Of a stretch of DNA of 64,000 bases, positions 42,555 to 53,764 are shown in pieces. Position numbers and translations under genes: made by a program. The notes under the pieces are model-generated. The model was not told where the DNA came from. It did no database searches and was given only the letters and a program-made list of their open reading frames with translations. The stretch is taken from positions 2,496,001 to 2,560,000 of the forward strand of contig NZ_CP084930.1 in assembly GCF_023822065.1 (NCBI RefSeq). Reading direction: 5' to 3'. Source of the stretch: Sphingomonas morindae (GTDB taxonomy: Bacteria; Pseudomonadota; Alphaproteobacteria; Sphingomonadales; Sphingomonadaceae). The first letter of the stretch is position 1. Each line of letters opens with the position of its first letter.

Positions 42555-43535
42555 ATGATGAGCGCCACCCATTCCACCCGCATGTTGATTCTCGGTTCCG
42601 GCCCGGCGGGGCTGTCGGCGGCCATTTACGGCGCCCGCGCCGGGCTCGCGCCGATCGTGGTGCAGGGCATCCAGCCCGGCGGCCAGCTCACCACCACCAC
42701 CGATGTCGAGAATTATCCCGGCTTCAAGGAGGTGATCCAGGGCCCCTGGCTGATGGAGCAGATGCAGGCCCAGGCCGAGCATGTCGGCGCCACGATGATG
42801 TGGGACACGATCGTCGAGGTAGATCTCAGCCAGCGGCCGTTCCGGCTGATCGGCGATGGCGGCCATGTCTATCTTGGCGACACGCTGGTGATCGCCACCG
42901 GCGCCCAGGCCAAGTGGCTGGGGCTGGAGAGCGAGACCAAGCTGCGCGGCCAGGGCGTGTCCGCCTGCGCCACCTGCGACGGGTTTTTCTTCCGGGGCAA
43001 GAAGGTGGCGGTGATCGGCGGCGGCAACACCGCCGTCGAGGAGGCGCTCTACCTCACCAACCACAGCCATGACGTGACGCTGATCCACCGCCGCGATTCG
43101 CTGCGCGCCGAGAAGATCCTCCAGGAGCGGCTGTTCAAGCATCACGGCGTGACGGTGCTGTGGAACAAGGAGGTGGAGGAGTTTGTCGGCGGCGAGGGGA
43201 CGGCGGGCCTCGTCGCGCTGCGGCTGCGCGACACGCAGACCGGCGAAACGAGCCGGCTCGATGTCGAAGGCGGCTTCGTCGCGATCGGCCATCATCCCGC
43301 GACCGAGCTGTTCCGCGGCCATGTCGCGCTGGACGAGGATGGCTATATCGCCGTCACGCCGGGCACCACCCACACCTCGGTGCCGGGCGTCTTCGCCTGT
43401 GGCGACGTGATGGACAAGGTCTATCGCCAGGCGATCACCGCCGCCGGCACCGGCTGCATGGCCGCGCTCGATTGCGAGCGCTTCCTCGCCGAGGCCGATT
43501 ACGAGGATGAGCGCGCCGTCATCGCTGCCGAATGA
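42555..43535 (+). CDS. trxB: Thioredoxin-disulfide reductase
   Basis: This FAD/NADPH enzyme reduces thioredoxin. The 326-residue protein has the FAD motif GSGPAG at 14-19 and the redox-active Cys138-Ala-Thr-Cys141. The NADPH motif is GGGNTAVEEAL, and the C-terminal FAD-binding GVFACGDVMD is present. The length is typical. The start is ATG at 42555 (two consecutive ATGs). Its 3' end overlaps the convergent hydrolase gene of the exosortase locus by 17 bp. Confidence 0.96.
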   Translation: MMSATHSTRMLILGSGPAGLSAAIYGARAGLAPIVVQGIQPGGQLTTTTDVENYPGFKEVIQGPWLMEQMQAQAEHVGATMMWDTIVEVDLSQRPFRLIGDGGHVYLGDTLVIATGAQAKWLGLESETKLRGQGVSACATCDGFFFRGKKVAVIGGGNTAVEEALYLTNHSHDVTLIHRRDSLRAEKILQERLFKHHGVTVLWNKEVEEFVGGEGTAGLVALRLRDTQTGETSRLDVEGGFVAIGHHPATELFRGHVALDEDGYIAVTPGTTHTSVPGVFACGDVMDKVYRQAITAAGTGCMAALDCERFLAEADYEDERAVIAAE

Positions 43536-44286
43536 GCGCGCTGAGCGCGGCATAGCCCGCCGCATCGGCGAAGCTGTGCGAGGCGGTGGCGATCCGCAGC
43601 AGCGGCACCGCCGGCGGCGCGGGCCGCAGCGCCGCCCAGGCCGAAGCGAAGGCCTGGGCGGTGCCGTCGTCCTCAGCCAGCACCAGCCGGCTGCCGGCGG
43701 TCAGGCCGGCGGCGATGCGCGCGGCGAGCGGGCTCGTCTCGCGCGCGGCGCCGCGCACCAGACCGCGCGCGAGCCGTCGCAGATCGACGCCGCCGCCCAC
43801 CAGCCGCGCCCAGGCGGCGGGATCGGCGAGCCGCCGGGCATAATGGCCGCGGATCGCGGCGGCGGGCGGAAGATCGTCGCGCGGCGGCACCGCCCAGGGA
43901 TTGGCGAGCAGCAGCGGCCCGATGCCGGCGGCGCGGCCGTGCAGCGCGAGCGCCGTGGCGCCATCGCACAGGCCGAAGCCGCGCACCTCCTCCAGGCCCG
44001 GCGCGAAGCCGCGCAGGGCGGCGCCCGCGGCCGCGATCTCCGGCGCGCTTTCGGCGAAGCCGGGATCATCGCCGGGGCTGTCCCCCACGCCGCGCCGATC
44101 GAAGCGGATCACGGCCTCGCCCTGCGCGCCGAGTTCCGCCGCCAACCGCGCATAGAGGCGATGCGGGCCGGCGCGGATCTGCGTGCCGCCGGTTACGAAC
44201 ACCCAGCCGCGCCGCGCCGTGGCGGGGCCATCGAGGCTGGCCATGATCCAGCCCGTGCCGCAGGGTATGGGTTGCAGCCGCCTCAT
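43519..44286 (-). CDS. Exosortase A system-associated hydrolase 1 (alpha/beta hydrolase)
   Basis: This 255-residue alpha/beta hydrolase belongs to the group found only beside exosortase A. The nucleophile elbow reads GLCDGAT with Cys107 in place of the usual Ser, then an acidic residue in VLAEDDG and a His in TASHSF complete a triad. The RFDRRGVGDS segment resembles the oxyanion region of the family. Its ATG overlaps the stop of hydrolase 2 (ATGA). It ends the minus-strand arm of the locus and overlaps trxB by 17 bp. A thioesterase or acyltransferase role toward the ACP is an inference. Confidence 0.88.
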   Translation of the reverse strand: MRRLQPIPCGTGWIMASLDGPATARRGWVFVTGGTQIRAGPHRLYARLAAELGAQGEAVIRFDRRGVGDSPGDDPGFAESAPEIAAAGAALRGFAPGLEEVRGFGLCDGATALALHGRAAGIGPLLLANPWAVPPRDDLPPAAAIRGHYARRLADPAAWARLVGGGVDLRRLARGLVRGAARETSPLAARIAAGLTAGSRLVLAEDDGTAQAFASAWAALRPAPPAVPLLRIATASHSFADAAGYAALSALIRQR

Positions 44287-44924
44287 GCCCGCGCCCAGGC
44301 GCGGATATCCTCGGCCATGGCGGCGAGGAGATCGGCATCGGCCGCCGGCTCGGCGCGGCGCCAGAGCGGCGCGCCGGCGAGGCGGACATCGGCGGGCGCG
44401 GGATCGTCGCGCAGCCGCGCGGTGCGCGCCGCGCCCTGCGGCGTGGCGGCGGCGAGCGGCGCGGCGAGCGTGGGCGCGAGGGGATGATCCTCGCCCGCGC
44501 CGTCGCCGAGCCGGGCGGCGCGCGCGCGATCGCGCAGCAGCGCGGCGCCGTCGGCGGGGCTGAGCCGCCAGCGCGCCACGCCGATGCCATCGAGCAGCGC
44601 GCCGCCGCGCAGCGCCACGGTGCGCGGCGGCCGGCCGCTGGACGCGGCGACATGGGCGGCGAGCGCCGCGCACAGGGCCTGCCAGTCCGCCCAGCCGATC
44701 CTGTCCAGCGCGGCGGGGCTCTCGCCCGTTCCCGGCAGATCGGGCAGCCACAGGCCGAAGCCGTCCTGCGCCAGCGCGCGCGCCAGCCCGGCCAGCAGCG
44801 CGCGGCAGCGATTGGCCTCCTCGAACAGGGGCTGGAGCAGGATCAGCGGCGGCGCGGCGGGATCGCCATAGTGGAGCACGAAGGCCGCGCCCAGTTCGAG
44901 GACGCGCGGCGCCGCCGGGATCAT
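44283..44924 (-). CDS. Exosortase A system-associated hydrolase 2-like protein, shortened
   Basis: This 213-residue protein shows the alpha/beta hydrolase start (LILLQPLFEEANRCRALL, LWLPDLPGTGES) of the hydrolase 2 family linked to exosortase A. Known members are usually longer, and I see no convincing nucleophile: the elbow region reads LRGGALL without Ser or Cys. It may be a non-catalytic partner of hydrolase 1. Both ends are coupled: its ATG overlaps the ACP stop, and its stop overlaps the hydrolase 1 ATG, both as ATGA. Confidence 0.78.
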   Translation of the reverse strand: MIPAAPRVLELGAAFVLHYGDPAAPPLILLQPLFEEANRCRALLAGLARALAQDGFGLWLPDLPGTGESPAALDRIGWADWQALCAALAAHVAASSGRPPRTVALRGGALLDGIGVARWRLSPADGAALLRDRARAARLGDGAGEDHPLAPTLAAPLAAATPQGAARTARLRDDPAPADVRLAGAPLWRRAEPAADADLLAAMAEDIRAWARA

Positions 44925-45190
44925 GCGTCCAGCTTGGCGCGCACGAAGCGGGCGAGGCTGCCGAAGCTCTCCAGCAGCGCGCCGTCTACCTCGTCATCCT
45001 CGATCAGGATGCCGAGACGATCCTCGATCTCGGTCAGCAGCCCCGCGACCGCCATGGAATCGAGTTCCGGAAGCACGCCGAACAGCGGCGTGTCGGCGGT
45101 GAGCGCGGCGGCGCGGGCGGGGGCGAGACCCAGCGTATCGGCAAGGATGGCGCGCAGCTGATCATCGACGGTAGGGGCGTCAATCGACAT
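44921..45190 (-). CDS. Acyl carrier protein of the exosortase A locus
   Basis: This 89-residue acidic helical protein has the phosphopantetheine attachment Ser45 in ELDSMAVAGLL, followed by the acidic helix TEIEDRLGI. It should carry an acyl or aminoacyl group as a thioester in the cytoplasm. ATG at 45190 follows AAGGAG with 6-nt spacing. It sits between a FemAB/GNAT-like gene and two hydrolases; the AMP-ligase on the other arm is the natural loading enzyme. Confidence 0.9.
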   Translation of the reverse strand: MSIDAPTVDDQLRAILADTLGLAPARAAALTADTPLFGVLPELDSMAVAGLLTEIEDRLGILIEDDEVDGALLESFGSLARFVRAKLDA

Positions 45191-45210
45191 GGCAATCTCC
45201 TTGCGCGCGC

Positions 45211-46158
45211 CTATCGCAGGCCGGCGCGGCGGGCAAGGCGGCCGGTCAGCGCGCGCACCAGCCCGGCGGCGCCGCGGGGGCGGAGCGGGCGATAGGCGTC
45301 CAGCCGCCACACGGGTTCGGCGCGATCCAGCCAATCGCCCTTATAGGGCTCGTCGCCGAGGCCGAAATCGATCCGCCGGACGCGATCCACGTCGATGACA
45401 TGGCGGAACAGGGCATGGCTGAGCAGGGTGCCCGGCGAGCCGGCGCGCTGGTCCTCGCGATGGGCGAGCTTGTGGATCACCGCCTCGCCGCCCTCGACCA
45501 GCCAGAATTGCGCGGCGACGGGCTGATCGCCGCGCCACGCCAGCCCCAGCCGGAGCGTGCCGGCCGCGCCCTCGCGCGCCGCCAGCGTGCGGAGCAGCGC
45601 CGGCGCCCCTTCCTCGGGCTTCCAGCTCGCCCGGTAGACGGCCTCATAGGCCTGCCAGGCGGGCGCGGCGAAGCGGTCGAGTATCTCGATCCGCACCGGA
45701 TGGCTGCGCGCGCGCCGCGCCACCAGCGTGCGCAGGCGGCCGGGGCGCGCCGCCCAATAGGCGTCGAACGGCACGCCCTCGAGCGTGCTCAGCCAGCGCG
45801 TCGACTGGCGGTGGAGAAGCACGCGCCAGCCGGCGGCGCGCAGCCCGGCGATCAGCGCGGCGCGGCGATCGGCGCGCACCGGCAGCAGCGTGAGCCGATC
45901 GAAGCGCGTCGCGGCGGCGGCGAAGAGCGCGGGCAGCAGCCGGTCCGGGCCGATCGGCGCGAAGGCGAGGCTGTACCAGCAGGCGAGCGGCGCGGCGCGG
46001 CGGCGCCCCTGATCGGCGAGGAAGAGGAACGCCTCCTCGCCGCCATCCGTCACCCGCAGCACGCGCGGCGCCAGCGCGGGATCATGCGCGGCGACGAGGC
46101 GGAACCAGTCGAGCCGCTCGAACAGCGGCCGGGGGCGCGCCAGCGCGGGCGCCGCCAT
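45211..46158 (-). CDS. GNAT/FemAB-like acyltransferase of the exosortase A locus
   Basis: This 315-residue protein has two tandem GNAT-like halves. The second half contains the typical FemAB/CelD-type segments WQAYEAVYRASWKP, LAWRGDQPVAAQFWLV, HKLAHRED, GTLLSHALFRHVI and DFGLGDEPYKGDW. Such enzymes transfer acyl or aminoacyl groups to polysaccharides or peptidoglycan precursors. ATG at 46158 is 42 bp from the divergent AMP-ligase start. It leads the minus-strand arm, 20 bp ahead of the ACP gene. It is separate from the FemAB protein encoded at 55.7 kb. Confidence 0.82.
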   Translation of the reverse strand: MAAPALARPRPLFERLDWFRLVAAHDPALAPRVLRVTDGGEEAFLFLADQGRRRAAPLACWYSLAFAPIGPDRLLPALFAAAATRFDRLTLLPVRADRRAALIAGLRAAGWRVLLHRQSTRWLSTLEGVPFDAYWAARPGRLRTLVARRARSHPVRIEILDRFAAPAWQAYEAVYRASWKPEEGAPALLRTLAAREGAAGTLRLGLAWRGDQPVAAQFWLVEGGEAVIHKLAHREDQRAGSPGTLLSHALFRHVIDVDRVRRIDFGLGDEPYKGDWLDRAEPVWRLDAYRPLRPRGAAGLVRALTGRLARRAGLR

Positions 46159-46200
46159 GGTCTCCAGATCCAGCCATTCCCCCAAGACCAACCTCGCGTT

Positions 46201-47745
46201 ATGGGCGGGCCCGCTGTGCCGCCGAAGGACTGGATTTTGCAAGAGCGCTCGCCCGATGCCACCCCCTGCCGGCTGGACTGGCTGGCGCGGCGGGGCGCGC
46301 GCGCGGCGCCCGCGCTCGCCGATCGCGCGGGCACGCTGGACCATGCGGGGCTGGACGCGGCGGTGGGCGCGCTCGCCGCGCATCTGGCGGAACGCAGCGC
46401 GCCGGGCGATCGCATCGCCAGCTGGCTTCCCAAGACGCGGCTCGCCTGCCTTTTGCCGCTCGCCTGCGCGCGCGCCGGGCGGGTGCATGTGCCGATCAAC
46501 CCGCTGCTCAAGCCGGGCCAGGTCGGCCATATCCTCGCCGATGCCGAGGCGGCGCTGCTGATCAGCCAGCCCGCGCGGCTGGCGCTGTTGCCGCCGGGCG
46601 GGGCGATGCTGCCCGAGGCGGCGCTCGCCGCCGGGCATGACGCCGCGCTGCCGCCCTCCACCGGCGATGCCGGCGCGCTGGCCGCGCTGCTCTACACCTC
46701 GGGCTCGACGGGGCGGCCCAAGGGGGTAATGCTGAGCCACGCCAATCTCTGGCTCGGCGCGCTCTCGGTCGCCCACTATCTCGCGCTCGCGCCCGATGAT
46801 CGCACCCTGGCCGTGCTGCCGCTCAGCTTCGATGCCGGGCTCAACCAGATGCTCGCCAGCTGGGCGGCGGGCGCGATGATCGCCCCGCTCGATTATCTGG
46901 TGCCGGCCGATGTGGTGAAGGCGGTGGAGCGCCACGCCATCACCGTGCTGACGGGCGTGCCGCCGCTCTGGATCCAATTGGCCGAGGCGCGCTGGCCCGA
47001 GGCGACGGCGGCGCGGCTGCGCACCATCGCCACCACCGGCGGCCGCCTGCCGGTGGCCGTGGTGCGGCGGCTGCGCGCGCTCTTTCCGGCGGCGCGGCTG
47101 CACCTGATGTATGGCCTGACCGAGGCGTTTCGCGCCACCAGCCTCGATCCGGCGCTGGTCGACGCGCATCCCGATGCGATCGGCACCGCCATCCCCTTCG
47201 CCGAGGTGCTGGTGCTGCGTCCCGATGGCCGCGAGGCCGCGCCCGACGAGCCGGGCGAGCTGGTGCAGGCGGGCCCGCTGGTGGCGCAGGGCTATTGGCG
47301 CGATCCGGCGCGCACCGCGCTGCGCTTCCGCCCGGCGCCGGCGGCGGCGCGGGCCGGGGGCGTTGCGGTTTGGTCGGGCGATACGGTCGTGCGCGGGGCG
47401 GATGGGCTGCTCCGGTTCGTCGGCCGCGACGACGAGATGATCAAGGTCTCGGGCAACCGCATCAGCCCCACCGAGATCGAGGAGGCGGCGATCGCCAGCG
47501 GCGCCGCGCGCGAGGCGGTGGCGCTGGGGGTGGCCGATGCCCGGCTCGGCCAGGCCATCCTGCTGCTGGTGCGCGGCGCGCCCGATCAGGATCCGGACGC
47601 GGCCGACGCCGTGCTCCGCGCCTTTCTCAAGGCCGAGCTGGCCGGCTTCCAGCAACCCGGCACGATCCGCTGGGTGGCGGACTTTCCCCGCAATCCCAAT
47701 GGCAAGCTCGATCGCGCCGCGATCCGGGCGGAGGCGCTGCGATGA
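46201..47745 (+). CDS. Acyl-CoA ligase (AMP-forming), exosortase A system-associated
   Basis: This 514-residue adenylate-forming enzyme has the ATP-binding motif LLYTSGSTGRPKG at 164-176, the MYGLTEAFR motif, and the C-terminal hinge with catalytic Lys in PNGKLDR. It belongs to the ligase group tied to exosortase A loci, with unknown substrate. The natural acceptor is likely the divergently encoded ACP. ATG at 46201 is used, although no clear ribosome site precedes it and GTG at 46216 is possible. Its stop overlaps the decarboxylase start in ATGA. Confidence 0.9.
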   Translation: MGGPAVPPKDWILQERSPDATPCRLDWLARRGARAAPALADRAGTLDHAGLDAAVGALAAHLAERSAPGDRIASWLPKTRLACLLPLACARAGRVHVPINPLLKPGQVGHILADAEAALLISQPARLALLPPGGAMLPEAALAAGHDAALPPSTGDAGALAALLYTSGSTGRPKGVMLSHANLWLGALSVAHYLALAPDDRTLAVLPLSFDAGLNQMLASWAAGAMIAPLDYLVPADVVKAVERHAITVLTGVPPLWIQLAEARWPEATAARLRTIATTGGRLPVAVVRRLRALFPAARLHLMYGLTEAFRATSLDPALVDAHPDAIGTAIPFAEVLVLRPDGREAAPDEPGELVQAGPLVAQGYWRDPARTALRFRPAPAAARAGGVAVWSGDTVVRGADGLLRFVGRDDEMIKVSGNRISPTEIEEAAIASGAAREAVALGVADARLGQAILLLVRGAPDQDPDAADAVLRAFLKAELAGFQQPGTIRWVADFPRNPNGKLDRAAIRAEALR

Positions 47746-48974
47746 AGCCCAAAGGCCCGATCCCGCCCTATTTCGAGGCCGGCGCCGCCGGCCGTCTGGC
47801 GATCGGCGGACAGGATGCCGAGGCGATCGCGGCCGAGGCGGACACGCCCTGTTTCGTCTATGATGCCGGCATCATCGCGACCCGCCTCGCCGCGCTGCGG
47901 GCCGCGATGCCCGCCGGGCTCGGCATCCATTATGCGATCAAGGCCAACCCCTTTCCGCCGCTGCTCGCGTGGATGGCGGGGCGGGTGGACGGGTTCGACA
48001 TCGCGTCCGGCGGCGAATTGCGGCGCGCGCGCGCGGCCGGCATGGCGGCGGCGCGGATCAGCTTCGCCGGGCCCGGCAAGCGCGCGCGCGATCTCGAAGC
48101 GGCGATCGCGGCGGGGGTGACGCTCAACCTCGAATCCGAGGGCGAGGCGCGCCGCGCGCTGGCGATCGGAGAACGGCTGGGCGTGGCGCCGCGCTGCGCG
48201 GTGCGGATCAACCCCGCCTTCGAGCTGCGCGGCTCGGGCATGCGGATGGGCGGCGGCGCCAAGCCCTTCGGCGTGGACGAGGCGCGGGTGCCGGCGCTGC
48301 TCCGCCACCTGATCGCGGCGGGCGCGGACTATCGCGGGCTGCACATCTACGCGGGCTCGCAGGCGCTCGACGCGCAGGCGATCATCGACGCGCAGCGCCA
48401 GGCGGTGGCGCTGGCGCGGCGCCTGGACGAGGCGCTGGGCGCGGCCGCGCCGCTGGTGAATCTGGGCGGCGGCTTCGGCGTGCCCTATTTCGCGGGCGAT
48501 GCCGCGCTCGACATCGGCGCGATCGGCGCGGCGCTGGCCGAGACGGTGGCGGGCGAGGCGGCGCGCTTCGCGATCGAGCTTGGCCGCTGGATCGTGGCCG
48601 AGGCGGGCGTCTATCTCACCCGCGTCGTCGATCGCAAGCTGAGCCACGACCGGCTCTTCCTCGTCACCGATGGCGGGCTCCACCACCAGCTGGCGGCATC
48701 GGGCAATTTCGGCACGGTGGTGCGGCGCAACTATCCCATCGCCAATGCCAGCCGCTTCGAGGCGCCGGAGGCGGCGGTGGCGACGGTCGTCGGATGCCTC
48801 TGCACGCCGCTGGACCGGCTCGCCGACGAGGTGCTGCTGCCCGAGACGGCGGAGGGCGATCTGATCGCGGTCTTCCTGGCCGGAGCCTATGGCGCGAGCG
48901 CCAGCCCGGCGGCCTTTCTCGGCCATGAGCCCGCCGCCGAACGCCTGCTCGGCGCCGCGCCGGAGCGTCCCTAA
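47742..48974 (+). CDS. PLP-dependent decarboxylase, exosortase A system-associated
   Basis: This 410-residue fold-type III enzyme is related to diaminopimelate and ornithine decarboxylases. PLP-binding Lys67 is in HYAIKANPFP. HIYAGSQ, NLGGGFGVPY and ELGRWIVAEAG provide phosphate and cofactor contacts. The partner-site Cys is in GCLCTPLDRL, where classical enzymes have CESGD, so the substrate pocket differs. It is translationally coupled to the ligase. A basic or diamino acid is the likely substrate; the product may be an amine used on the carrier or polysaccharide. Confidence 0.9.
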   Translation: MKPKGPIPPYFEAGAAGRLAIGGQDAEAIAAEADTPCFVYDAGIIATRLAALRAAMPAGLGIHYAIKANPFPPLLAWMAGRVDGFDIASGGELRRARAAGMAAARISFAGPGKRARDLEAAIAAGVTLNLESEGEARRALAIGERLGVAPRCAVRINPAFELRGSGMRMGGGAKPFGVDEARVPALLRHLIAAGADYRGLHIYAGSQALDAQAIIDAQRQAVALARRLDEALGAAAPLVNLGGGFGVPYFAGDAALDIGAIGAALAETVAGEAARFAIELGRWIVAEAGVYLTRVVDRKLSHDRLFLVTDGGLHHQLAASGNFGTVVRRNYPIANASRFEAPEAAVATVVGCLCTPLDRLADEVLLPETAEGDLIAVFLAGAYGASASPAAFLGHEPAAERLLGAAPERP

Positions 48975-49059: not shown

Positions 49060-49695
49060 ATGCGGACTTTGGCTCGGAGTGCGGCATCGGCGCTGGCGCT
49101 GCCGCTGGCGCTGATCGGATGCGCGACCGCCAAGGGCCCGCCGCTGCCGCCCGCCACCTTCGTCTCCACGCAGGAGGCGCCAGGCGAGGAATATGCGATC
49201 GGTCCGCTCGATCAGCTCTCGATCTTCGTGTGGCGCAATCCCGAGCTTGGCGCCAAGGTGCAGGTCCGCCCCGATGGCCGCATCACCACGCCGCTGATCG
49301 CCGACCTGCCCGCGCTGGGCAAGACGCCGAGCCAGCTCGCGGCCGATATCAAGGCGCGCCTCTCCAAATATGTGAACGACCCGCTGGTATCGGTGATCGT
49401 CGAGAATTTCTCGGGCACCTATGCCCAGCAGGTGCGCATCGTCGGCGCCACCGAAAAGCCGGCGAGCCTACCCTATCGCGCCAACATGACGCTGCTCGAC
49501 GCGATGATCGCGGTTGGCGGCCTGTCCCAATATGCGGCGGGGGACCGGGCCAAGCTGGTGCGATTCAACAAGGTGACGGGTAAGCAGCAGGAATATCCTC
49601 TGCAAATCTCCAAGCTGCTGAAGCGTGGCGATGTTGCCGCGAACGTCAAGCTGGAGCCGGGCGACGTGATCATCATCCCCGAAAGCGCGTTCTGA
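49060..49695 (+). CDS. XrtA-associated polysaccharide export lipoprotein (Wza/EpsE-like)
   Basis: The 211-residue precursor has a lipoprotein signal with lipobox ALIGC (Cys21). A Poly_export domain follows (YAIGPLDQLSIFVWRNPEL, VRPDGRITTPLI), then an SLBB-type domain (VRIVGATEKPASLPYRANMTLLDAM) and EPGDVIIIPES. It should form the outer-membrane export channel of the exopolysaccharide. ATG at 49060 follows AAGGGG. It begins the export/regulation block and is preceded by an 18-bp palindrome. Confidence 0.92.
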   Translation: MRTLARSAASALALPLALIGCATAKGPPLPPATFVSTQEAPGEEYAIGPLDQLSIFVWRNPELGAKVQVRPDGRITTPLIADLPALGKTPSQLAADIKARLSKYVNDPLVSVIVENFSGTYAQQVRIVGATEKPASLPYRANMTLLDAMIAVGGLSQYAAGDRAKLVRFNKVTGKQQEYPLQISKLLKRGDVAANVKLEPGDVIIIPESAF

Positions 49696-51260: not shown

Positions 51261-52172
51261 ATGAGCAAGCACGATCCCATTCATCCCGATCCCGCGAACG
51301 GCCGGCGCCGCGCCGGCTCGCTGGTCGAGCGCGCGGCGCGCGCCTATGGCTTCGAGGCGGCGGGCCGGGTGCCGCCGCTGCGCGACGCCGAGCCGCTGGC
51401 GGCCGCGCCGGCGGCGCCGCTGCCCAATGAGCGGGCGCTGGCGCCGCTGTTCCGGGGCCGCGCCGGCACGGTGCAGCGCGCGCGGCTGGCCGAGGCCGGC
51501 TTCATCCTGCCCGGCCAGGCGCCGAGCGCGCTGTCCGAGGAATTCCGGGTCATCAAGCGGCCGCTGCTGACGGCGGCGGCCGATGGCGGCGCGCTGCGCA
51601 CCATTCTGGTCGCCTCGGCGCGGCCGGACGAGGGCAAGACCTTCTGCGCGATCAATCTCGCGCTCAGCCTCGCGGCGGAAACCGAGATCGAGGTGGTGCT
51701 GGTGGACGGCGACGTGGCCAAGCCCGACATCGTCGCGACCTTGGGGCTGGAGGATGGGCCGGGGCTGCTCGATGCGCTGGCCGATCCCGGCTGCGCGGTC
51801 GAGACCTGCCTGATCCGCACCGATATTCCGCACCTCTCGGTGCTGCCCGCCGGCGCCGCGCGGCACGAGGCGACCGAGCTGCTCGCCTCGGCGCGCACCC
51901 GCGCCTTGTTCGAGACGCTGCGCGCGCAGGATCCGCGCCGCATCCTGGTGATCGATTCGCCGCCTGCGCTGGCGGCCTCGCCGGCGGGGGTGCTGGCGGC
52001 GCTGGCCGGCCAGGCGGTGGTGGTGGTGCGCGCCGACCGCACCGGCGAGGCCGATCTGCGCCACGCGCTGGAGCTGCTCTCCGCCTGTCCGCGCCCGCAG
52101 CTGCTGCTCAACGGGGTGGAGTTCCGCCCCGGCGCGCGCCGCTTCGCCGGCTATTACGGGATCGAGGCGTGA
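51261..52172 (+). CDS. XrtA-associated bacterial tyrosine autokinase (EpsG/Wzc kinase-like)
   Basis: This 303-residue soluble BY-kinase has Walker A ARPDEGKT (120-127), Walker A' VVLVDGDVAKPD (145-156) and Walker B ILVIDSPP. The N-terminal 100 residues form a linker with the RVIKRPLL segment that contacts the membrane partner. The usual C-terminal tyrosine cluster is small: only two adjacent Tyr residues near the end (AGYYGIEA). It should control chain length with the Wzz protein. Its stop overlaps the GTG of the next gene (GTGA). Confidence 0.9.
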   Translation: MSKHDPIHPDPANGRRRAGSLVERAARAYGFEAAGRVPPLRDAEPLAAAPAAPLPNERALAPLFRGRAGTVQRARLAEAGFILPGQAPSALSEEFRVIKRPLLTAAADGGALRTILVASARPDEGKTFCAINLALSLAAETEIEVVLVDGDVAKPDIVATLGLEDGPGLLDALADPGCAVETCLIRTDIPHLSVLPAGAARHEATELLASARTRALFETLRAQDPRRILVIDSPPALAASPAGVLAALAGQAVVVVRADRTGEADLRHALELLSACPRPQLLLNGVEFRPGARRFAGYYGIEA

Positions 52173-53764
52173 TCGCGCGGCGGGCAGGTCTGGCGGGCGG
52201 CCTCGTGCTGGCGCTGGCCGCGCCCGCCGCCGCGCGCGTGACGGTCCAGCCCTATATCGAGGCGCAGCAGGTCTTCTCGGCCGATCTGTCGGGCAATGGC
52301 GATGCCGTGACCTATACCGGCGTCGGCGCCGGCATCGACGTCGCCGCCGAGAGCGCGCGCTTTCGCGGCCAGCTCAGCTATCGCTATGATCATTATTTCT
52401 CCTGGTCGCGCCGCTATCCCGATGGCGACATCCATAACGGCCTGGCGAGCGGCAGCTATCGGCTGGGCGACGGGTTCAGCCTGGATGGCGCGGCGATCGC
52501 CACCCGCTCGCGCGGGACGCTGGCGGCGAGCAGCCCGGGCCTGCTGCTGGGCTCGTTCAGCAACACGCAGCAAATCTATGGCGGGCAGATCGGGCCGAGC
52601 TTCCGCCGCAGCTTCGGCGATCTCAACGCCGCGGCCGATTACCGCTTCGGCTACACCCATGTCGATCAGGGCAGCGGCGCCTTCAGCCTCGGCCCGGGGC
52701 AGACGCTGCTCGATCCCAGCTTCGATACGCTGAGCCACAGCGCGCAGGCGAGCCTGGGCGCGCGGCCCGGCCATGGCCTGCCCTTTGGCTGGCAGCTGGG
52801 CGGCGGGCTGATCCACGACGAGATCCATCTTCTCGATCAGCGCTATGACGGCCGCTATGTGCGGCTCGACCTGACCCAGCCGATCGCCCCCACGGTCGCG
52901 CTGGTGGGGGGCGTGGGCTATGAGACCAACCGCGCCAGCCAGCGCCCCGTGCAGCTGGACAGCGCGGGCGCGCCGGTGATCGCGCATGGCCGGCTCGTGC
53001 CGGACCGCGCCGCGCCGCGCCTGCTCGTCTATGATCAGGACGGGCTCCTGTGGGATGTGGGGGTGCTGTGGCGGCCCAGCACGCGCTTCGAGCTGGAGGC
53101 GCGCGGCGGCCGCCGCTATGGCGACTGGGCGGCGACCGGCCATCTGCTCTGGCGCCCCAGCGCGACCGCGACGGTGCAGGTGGTGGCCTATAACGACATC
53201 CAGAGCTTCGGCCGCCAGCTGACCGGCGGCATCGGCGCGCTGGGCGACAGCTTCACCGCCTCCAACATGCTGATCCCGGTGAGCCTGGGCGGCTGCGTGT
53301 TCGGCGCCAATGGCGGGCAGGGCGGCTGCCTGCCGGCGCTGTCGTCGATCGCGGCCAATTTCTACCGCTCGCGCGGGATCTGGGCGCTGGTCTCGGCGAC
53401 GCATGGCCGATGGACCTATGGCCTGGGCGTCAACTACGATCATCGCCGCTATCTCGGCGTGGCGACGCCCGGCGTGGCGTCGCTCGCCGGGGTGGCCGAC
53501 GAGACGGTGACGGTGAACGGGCTCGTCGCGCGCCAGCTCAGCGCCCGCTCCACCCTGTCGGGCACGCTCTATATCGGCTGGTACGACAGCGGGCTGGCGG
53601 GCGCGGTGCGCTATACCAGCTATGGCGCGACGGGCACCTATAGCCACGCCTTCGGCCGGCGGCTGCTCGGCCAGGCGGCGATCAGCGTCTATTCCGGGGC
53701 GGGCGGCGCAATCGATCAGGATGTGATCGGATCGGCGCTGCTCGGCCTGCGCTACCAGCTTTAA
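52169..53764 (+). CDS. XrtA-associated outer-membrane beta-barrel protein
   Basis: The 531-residue protein has a signal peptide (about 1-22, ending APAAA) and a repeated beta-strand pattern of the outer-membrane barrel family found in PEP-CTERM polysaccharide loci. The C terminus ends in LGLRYQL. Segments such as ARFRGQLSYRYDHYFSW and GGVGYETNRASQ are family-typical. The start is GTG at 52169, overlapping the kinase stop. The role is probably export or anchoring of the polysaccharide at the outer membrane; the exact function is unknown. Confidence 0.85.
   Translation: MIARRAGLAGGLVLALAAPAAARVTVQPYIEAQQVFSADLSGNGDAVTYTGVGAGIDVAAESARFRGQLSYRYDHYFSWSRRYPDGDIHNGLASGSYRLGDGFSLDGAAIATRSRGTLAASSPGLLLGSFSNTQQIYGGQIGPSFRRSFGDLNAAADYRFGYTHVDQGSGAFSLGPGQTLLDPSFDTLSHSAQASLGARPGHGLPFGWQLGGGLIHDEIHLLDQRYDGRYVRLDLTQPIAPTVALVGGVGYETNRASQRPVQLDSAGAPVIAHGRLVPDRAAPRLLVYDQDGLLWDVGVLWRPSTRFELEARGGRRYGDWAATGHLLWRPSATATVQVVAYNDIQSFGRQLTGGIGALGDSFTASNMLIPVSLGGCVFGANGGQGGCLPALSSIAANFYRSRGIWALVSATHGRWTYGLGVNYDHRRYLGVATPGVASLAGVADETVTVNGLVARQLSARSTLSGTLYIGWYDSGLAGAVRYTSYGATGTYSHAFGRRLLGQAAISVYSGAGGAIDQDVIGSALLGLRYQL

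Follow-up and report, generated by a model that had tools for sequence, protein, structure and literature searches.

A putative carrier-bound amino acid decarboxylation module beside the exosortase A exopolysaccharide locus of Sphingomonas morindae

Sphingomonas morindae (NCBI RefSeq assembly GCF_023822065.1) encodes, next to an exosortase A (XrtA) exopolysaccharide (EPS) locus, a module of six genes that comprises an AMP-forming ligase, a fold-III pyridoxal phosphate (PLP) decarboxylase, a stand-alone acyl carrier protein (ACP), a GNAT-fold protein and two alpha/beta-hydrolases (hyd1 and hyd2). The module lies in a stretch of 64,000 nucleotides (contig NZ_CP084930.1, positions 2,496,001 to 2,560,000, forward strand), hereafter the window. 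It is proposed that these genes direct an ACP-tethered decarboxylation of the VinN-VinL-VinO/BtrK type, the product of which would be destined, in some form, for a surface glycan (estimated probability around 0.65). The core of this proposal, namely that the ACP receives an acidic amino acid through its side chain and that decarboxylation takes place on the carrier, is considered quite probable.

According to the proposed mechanism, the ligase would adenylate an acidic alpha-amino acid at its side-chain carboxyl and load it on the phosphopantetheine of the ACP. The BtrK-like PLP enzyme would then cleave off the alpha-carboxyl of the carrier-bound amino acid, so that an omega-amino acyl-ACP of the beta-alanyl type remains. 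The acyl group would then be moved onto the exosortase-A-linked EPS, probably to a sugar amine or hydroxyl, by hyd1 together with a presumably catalytically dead hyd2 and/or by the GNAT or a FemAB protein. L-aspartate, which would give a beta-alanyl group, has an even chance of being the substrate, glutamate or a substituted aspartate being the other candidates, and the odds are slightly in favor of the polysaccharide as the acceptor.

Gene organization and the conserved trio

The six genes form two divergent arms (positions in the window):

43519-44286, minus strand: hyd1, alpha/beta-hydrolase with a Cys107-Asp207-His237 triad, TIGR03100-like; candidate acyl-transfer or thioester-processing enzyme
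44283-44924, minus strand: hyd2, alpha/beta-hydrolase fold with Arg106 at the nucleophile elbow, weak TIGR03101 match; predicted non-catalytic partner
44921-45190, minus strand: stand-alone ACP, PF00550 (PP-binding), phosphopantetheine Ser45
45211-46158, minus strand: GNAT-fold protein, PF13480 (Acetyltransf_6); candidate transferase
46159-46200: divergent gap of 42 bp between both gene arms
46201-47745, plus strand: AMP-forming ligase, TIGR03098-like, with a VinN-type acidic amino-acid code Asp / Thr(Ser) / Arg
47742-48974, plus strand: PLP fold-III decarboxylase, TIGR03099, BtrK-like, with Lys67, Cys354 and the motif GCLCTPLD

Translation of the window bore out the six open reading frames (ORFs) of the original prediction with these boundaries, as well as the 42-bp gap, Ser45 of the ACP, the motif GCLCTPLD and three ATGA overlaps (hyd2/hyd1, ACP/hyd2 and ligase/decarboxylase); the GNAT and ACP genes are spaced by 20 bp. 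The six ORFs represent more than chance, as evidenced by a GC content at third codon positions of 0.82-0.92 across all of them, the family matches found for their products in NCBIfam and Pfam searches and their conserved order.

Conservation was assessed by tblastn with the window proteins in the best 80 of at least 577 relatives, which bear sphingomonad names except for a few labelled merely Alphaproteobacteria, Proteobacteria or bacterium, and in which the decarboxylase is present by construction. The 4-base ligase/decarboxylase overlap is kept in 75 of these 80 loci, and the ACP gene lies on the strand opposite to the ligase in every locus where both were detected (71/71). Among the 57 full-length loci (at least 21 kb), ligase and ACP were each found in 57 and the XrtA-system export gene in 45. 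The conserved core is thus formed by ligase, decarboxylase and ACP, and the view of the six genes as one obligate set was rejected, given that hyd1 and hyd2 are each present in 48 and the GNAT gene in 42 of the 57. The best solved match of the ACP is 2lki, labelled "putative uncharacterized protein" (E 5e-13), which we take to be an ACP of Nitrosomonas; Ser45 (..PELDSM..) is kept in 89/89 aligned rows.

Beyond these close relatives, 10 of 18 distant BtrK-like loci carry a module-type ligase, accompanied by a small ACP in 10/10. In the class to which genome G102 belongs (presumably the Gammaproteobacteria), TIGR03098 is over its cut-off in 34/274 genomes; in G102 itself the decarboxylase and ACP are sited elsewhere in the genome (L036), with the ligase ~1.9 Mb from the decarboxylase. 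As a separate observation, ligase-decarboxylase-ACP sets with the Asp and Arg of VinN occur at L046:11725-14605 and in L048, L049 and L051-L057, where no export, deacetylase or XrtA gene was found with the profiles used. The neighbors of the L046 set are GGDEF, DUF362, ferredoxin-type and HlyD genes, and the L052 set adjoins an aquaporin-family gene. These sets are candidate new beta-amino-acid pathways.

Ligase specificity code and decarboxylase kinship

The families TIGR03098, TIGR03099, TIGR03100 and TIGR03101 are all of NCBIfam type hypoth_equivalog, with no specific reaction named. Against TIGR03098 the ligase scored 590.9 bits, 1.5 bits below the curated cut-off of 592.35, and its gene order and residue code fit the family. 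Over the whole length, its best single-domain solved match was 3wvn (168.1 bits), presumably VinN, consistent with the residue numbering; five gramicidin-synthetase chains outrank 3wvn through the summing of two domains, their best single domain reaching 142.9 bits. In the specificity region 3wvn again ranked first (48.3 bits), followed by 5jjp (46.0), 4-coumarate ligase (37.4) and feruloyl-CoA synthetase (34.9). Since the whole-length lead of 3wvn over the feruloyl-CoA synthetase 8wev is thin, the kinship of the ligase to VinN rests on its residue code.

In VinN, Asp230, Ser299 and Arg331 have been assigned to the reading of the alpha-amino and alpha-carboxyl groups (PMC7756342). At the equivalent positions, the module ligases have Asp in 105/105 and Arg in 105/105, with Ser in 98 and Thr in 7; in a first set of 23 ligases that included distant members, Asp and Arg were each found in 23/23 and Ser or Thr in 22/23. 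Among 33 control AMP-binding enzymes from three genomes (36 fetched loci, of 53 AMP-binding matches, minus three module ligases), Asp was found in 4 and Arg in 0, with both in 0/33. All three code residues are missing from 4-coumarate ligase, and CmiS6, the substrate of which is without that carboxyl (PMC11284099), has no Arg at the code position. It was reported that VinN loads 3-methylaspartate on VinL and that VinO decarboxylates it afterwards, thioester formation being needed first, and that the substrate of FlvN is aspartate (PMC11284099). The code residues point to a putative activation of the side-chain carboxyl of an Asp-like substrate by the ligase.

The module resembles VinN-VinL-VinO of the vicenistatin pathway in combining a stand-alone AMP ligase with the same reading residues, a stand-alone ACP and a PLP decarboxylase. 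Other systems of this type are FlvN/fluvirucin and the proposed BolO-BolC-BolN of bolagladin, in which BolN is described as BtrK-like (PMC7756342). Unlike VinN-VinL-VinO, the module stands in an exosortase/EPS locus and its ligase has Phe in place of VinN Lys330; its decarboxylase was compared with BtrK only. A VinM-type second ligase is not among the six genes (the genome has 6 AMP-binding matches, one of them here), and no match to polyketide synthase (PKS) or nonribosomal peptide synthetase models was found among the proteins scanned, no genome-wide PKS search having been made.

The decarboxylase scored 531 bits against TIGR03099, above the curated cut-off of 478.45. Its nearest solved relatives are two entries of BtrK, the butirosin enzyme that decarboxylates L-glutamyl-[BtrI ACP] (231 bits, E 1.9e-67), the best diaminopimelate decarboxylase (DAPDC) reaching 135.9 bits. 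Reciprocally, TIGR03099 is the best NCBIfam model for BtrK (374.9 bits, under the cut-off, vs 263.8 for lysA), and the LysA of the host genome (L002) shows the reverse ranking (lysA 428.4 bits, over the cut-off, vs 198.5 for TIGR03099). In a tree of 35 rows, with an uncertain root and a very long-branched outgroup that was labelled ornithine-decarboxylase-like without a test, the 14 TIGR03099 rows form one clade (97/99), LysA is separate (100/100) and BtrK groups outside the TIGR03099 clade with three other non-XrtA relatives (90/88, under the mark for strong support). The motif CTxxD is present in 31/31 BtrK-like rows of the tree, reading CTPED in BtrK itself, and CE[ST]xD in 3/3 LysA rows. 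Lys67, presumably the PLP lysine judging from family knowledge, and Cys354 are kept in 107/107 TIGR03099-type rows. The FslC citryl-ornithine model reached merely 32.8 bits. The idea that GCLCTPLD marks a substrate other than diaminopimelate held up, as this site is common to BtrK. A variant site, GPLCTGAD, was observed in the BtrK-like decarboxylases of many genomes, a large share of them small metagenome-assembled ones, from a single family (f24; L059-L062 from G052, G104, G025 and G009). These enzymes scored ~270-304 bits against TIGR03099, and four of them cluster together in the tree; no ligase or ACP of module type was found in the stretches fetched.

These comparisons bear on whether the ligase and decarboxylase act in lysine or polyamine metabolism, which the original prediction had raised as a challenge to its own proposal. 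The decarboxylase does match lysA (TIGR01048) at 225.7 bits, but this is below the cut-off of 297.9, the site reads CTPLD and not CE[ST]xD, the tree places LysA apart and a separate LysA is encoded in the genome. Ordinary lysine or polyamine metabolism was rejected on these grounds and retains a negligible probability.

The decarboxylase is like BtrK in that the latter is its closest solved relative, in the reciprocal family match and in the CTPxD motif; BtrK differs in lying outside the TIGR03099 clade and below the TIGR03099 cut-off, and the partner ligase of the module is an AMP ligase, that of BtrK being, we assume, an ATP-grasp enzyme. BtrK converts BtrI-S-glutamate to BtrI-S-gamma-aminobutyrate and has been grouped with DAPDC and with FigC, SbnH, AcsE and MccE (PMC7857480). 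For the module, it is the pairing of its gene with that of an ACP that supports the putative action of the decarboxylase on an aminoacyl-ACP; the BtrK-like branch as a whole is not carrier-bound. Overall, families and residues support the carrier-protein pathway envisaged in the original prediction, in which an amino acid would be activated and decarboxylated. The expectation that an amine or an aminoacyl group is passed on would stand for the aminoacyl-ACP and not for a free amine, since the residues indicate a tethered decarboxylation.

A number of points weigh against the proposed pathway. Over the whole ligase, the feruloyl-CoA synthetase 8wev nearly equals 3wvn (166.5 vs 168.1 bits); position 299 is Thr rather than Ser in the window ligase and Ala in that of L048 (1/23 in the distant set); the Phe at the VinN Lys330 position is found in 105/105 module ligases; and counterparts of VinM and VinK were not seen. 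Relatives of BtrK act on other conjugates, such as citryl amino acids (FigC, SbnH, AcsE) and a microcin C intermediate (MccE) (PMC7857480), and the PLP enzyme IdnL3 of incednine decarboxylates beta-glutamate, presented without a carrier (PMC11284099), so that an ACP-bound substrate is not proven by kinship alone. The GNAT gene and hyd1/hyd2 are absent from some related loci, neither ligase nor ACP was found within the stretch fetched in 8/18 distant BtrK-like loci, and 20 loci selected by their ligase in the class of G102 (five of them in stretches shorter than 20 kb) contain the decarboxylase in 17, hyd1 in 9, hyd2 in 8 and the ACP in merely 8. The 80 examined loci are merely the closest of the at least 577 relatives, and the alignment rows (105 ligases and 107 decarboxylases), chosen by score or length, all belong to the module. 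Finally, the support is sequence-based. Gene content, family membership, the residues for specificity and catalysis and the recurrence of the trio are read from the DNA; the reactions themselves, the identity of the amino acid, its acceptor and the enzyme that transfers it are all predicted from them.

Predicted destination of the aminoacyl group

The XrtA exopolysaccharide locus extends 3' of the module and includes the following genes:

49060-49695, plus strand: XrtA-system exopolysaccharide export protein, TIGR03027
54850-55686, plus strand: XrtA-system polysaccharide deacetylase, TIGR03006
55683-56726, plus strand: FemAB-family XrtA-associated protein, TIGR03019
57976-58752 (contig 2553976-2554752), plus strand: exosortase A (XrtA) core, TIGR03109, 305 bits
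59406-61301, plus strand: XrtA-associated asparagine-synthetase-like amidotransferase, TIGR03108

A chain-length determinant, an ATPase, a glycosyltransferase and a tyrosine autokinase (below cut-off) are also encoded there. The deacetylase is a possible source of free sugar amines, and the FemAB protein may be an alternative candidate transferase.

Co-occurrence of the module with XrtA was examined with the NCBIfam cut-offs in 249 genomes of the phylum, 10 of them from one family. XrtA was over the cut-off in 14 genomes, the decarboxylase in 14 and both in 12 (Fisher p 9e-17, uncorrected for kinship). The co-occurrence anticipated in the original prediction therefore stands for 12 of 14 genomes either way, with two exceptions in each direction: the decarboxylase occurs without XrtA over the cut-off in G107 (no match) and G155 (a weaker exosortase, 127.7 bits), and XrtA without the decarboxylase in G007 and G015. 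Strict dependence on XrtA was rejected for this reason. The ligase tracks the decarboxylase rather than XrtA: in the 13 decarboxylase genomes of the 15 searched (the window's own excluded) it scored at least 516.9 bits, with 12 over the cut-off and G126 below it (548.7), and the best ligase stretches of G007 and G015 reached merely 246.5 and 233.1 bits. The hyd1 protein scored at least 166 bits in 11 of the 15 genomes, all with XrtA and decarboxylase, and no higher than 58.1 bits in G107, G155, G007 and G015.

In G107, which has no XrtA match, the neighbors of the trio encode glycosyltransferases, a polysaccharide deacetylase, a WsaF-like protein, a GFO/IDH/MocA oxidoreductase and a DegT aminotransferase, besides four neighbors without a family match. 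The polysaccharide is likelier than the PEP-CTERM anchor as the acceptor because this trio stands in a polysaccharide-type locus in a genome without XrtA. The simplest reading of this context is that the trio would serve a polysaccharide and that hyd1/hyd2 would adapt it to the XrtA polysaccharide. In G155, a reduced XrtA-type locus (L039) retains the decarboxylase, ligase, ACP, ATPase and polysaccharide deacetylase, and a gene at L039:5742-6707 matches a crotonase family and, below the cut-off, RpfF; in this genome hyd1 matches reached 22.7 bits at most, and XrtA stayed below its cut-off.

It is unlikely that a small molecule, lipid or peptide receives the product of the trio, with the exosortase neighborhood being secondary. 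Sets of the VinN/VinO type are known or proposed for macrolactams and lipodepsipeptides (PMC11284099, PMC7756342), and related trios adjoin genes of other kinds, such as those named above for L046 and L052, but the XrtA export gene lies near the orthologous trio in 45 of the 57 full-length loci and the trio of G107 stands in an EPS-like locus. The attachment of the aminoacyl group or amine to a PEP-CTERM protein, or its role as the nucleophilic amine by which the acyl-enzyme of XrtA is resolved, is rather improbable. The association of TIGR03099 with XrtA and the restriction of high hyd1 scores to genomes with both would favor it; G007 and G015, which have XrtA and neither decarboxylase nor ligase over the cut-off, and the converse cases G107 and G155 indicate that XrtA sorting as such needs no decarboxylase.

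A related idea, regarded as a long shot, is that the module supplies the amine of XrtA: a beta-aminoacyl group, placed on the EPS by means of hyd1/hyd2 and the FemAB protein, would present a primary amine that accepts PEP-CTERM proteins, which would become covalently joined to the polysaccharide. As 2 of the 14 XrtA genomes are without the decarboxylase, beta-aminoacyl-EPS would have to be one of several XrtA acceptors. The acceptor of sortase A, built by Fem proteins, and the amine head group proposed for archaeosortase are parallels.

The ACP and ligase may alternatively activate fatty acids for long-chain N-acyl amino acids (the TIGR03694 route), which a title by Craig et al. in 2011 is said to link with PEP-CTERM systems. 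Of 16 genomes examined, 5 have TIGR03694 over its cut-off, none of them in the window's family. In three of the five it lies near module genes, 267 bp away from hyd1 in G019 and 2.5 kb and 6.5 kb from the ligase in G102 and G126, respectively; a link to N-acyl amino acids is possible in these three genomes and adds to the objections listed above. On the other hand, neither the window's genome nor the 9 other genomes from its family gave a TIGR03694 match, and the amino-acid code of the ligase is absent from all 33 controls. Fatty-acid activation is disfavored in the window's genome and very unlikely for the module.

Regarding the transfer step of the proposed pathway, hyd1 and hyd2 were always found together (55 and 55 among the 80 loci), and alpha/beta-hydrolases are the best Foldseek matches of both. 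The orthology of hyd1 to TIGR03100 rests on synteny, its score being 156.7 bits under a cut-off of 168.45. The triad is kept in nearly all rows (Cys107 in 72/73, with Gly in L116; Asp207 and His237 in 73/73), and in the AlphaFold model (pLDDT 90.9) its residues fall where the catalytic residues of this fold are classically found: C107 sits between strand 100-106 and helix 108-116, D207 follows strand 200-204 and H237 follows strand 229-232. A nucleophilic Cys would fit the transfer of an acyl group from a thioester, the role inferred for hyd1. For hyd2 (213 aa), the match to the 266-position model TIGR03101 reached 42.1 bits under a cut-off of 202.75. The original prediction of two alpha/beta-hydrolases was thus right for both folds but needs correction for hyd2: where Ser, Cys or Asp would be expected, Arg106 occupies the elbow in 73/73 rows (AlphaFold pLDDT 92.7; strand 101-105, then helix 106-111) and no His is kept at 93% or more, so that hyd2 is probably a non-catalytic partner (pseudo-enzyme) of hyd1. 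The protein first described as FemAB/GNAT-like has the GNAT fold (PF13480), with no NCBIfam match, and is distinct from the TIGR03019 FemAB protein.

The proposed pathway is also reminiscent of the D-alanylation of teichoic acids by DltA/DltC, in which an amino acid bound to a small carrier decorates a surface polymer with amines. In the Dlt system D-Ala is activated at its alpha-carboxyl and there is no decarboxylase; the module, unlike it, has a decarboxylase, and no DltB-type family appears among the matches of its six genes.

Two further genes of the window were noted. A putative thioredoxin reductase gene (42555-43535; our label, assigned without a family search) overlaps the hyd1 end, and a counterpart of it lies close to hyd1 in L040, L042, L044 and L045. 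An outer-membrane protein (52169-53764) matches TIGR03016 weakly (30.9 bits vs a cut-off of 90.85), its position being kept in several relatives.

Precedents and significance

The module shares families and neighborhood with the NCBIfam exosortase-A set TIGR03098-TIGR03101, differing in that three of its four proteins are under the cut-off. The original description of an undescribed chemistry was too strong, as VinN/VinL/VinO and BtrK are precedents. Among the open-licence articles that the literature searches listed, no printed link was found between the exosortase A families and the chemistry of BtrK or VinN/VinO. A term search of the founding PEP-CTERM paper (PMC1569441) gave no occurrence of ligase, decarboxylase, hydrolase or acyl carrier. 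In the accessible sections of other articles, a study on the EPS of Sphingomonas sp. LM7 lists an exosortase-associated amidotransferase, with neither "decarboxylase" nor "acyl carrier" (PMC11340318), one on Aquincola floc formation has no decarboxylase and T4 DNA ligase as its sole "ligase" (PMC9850573), exosortase and decarboxylase appear in unrelated sections of PMC2907700, and PMC7857480 covers the BtrK reaction and its kin with exosortase absent. The chemistry is known from antibiotics; the exosortase-A/cell-surface setting is what appears to be new, no report of it having been found.

Altogether, a specific and cheaply testable reaction can be proposed for two of the four exosortase-A families for which no reaction is named, along with their ACP; one "hydrolase" is flagged as probably dead, and one class of polysaccharides from biofilms and flocs is predicted to carry a particular amine decoration. 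If true, a beta-amino-acid pathway of the antibiotic type would be at work in cell-surface chemistry, and this would provide a handle on the acceptor of the proteins processed by exosortase A.

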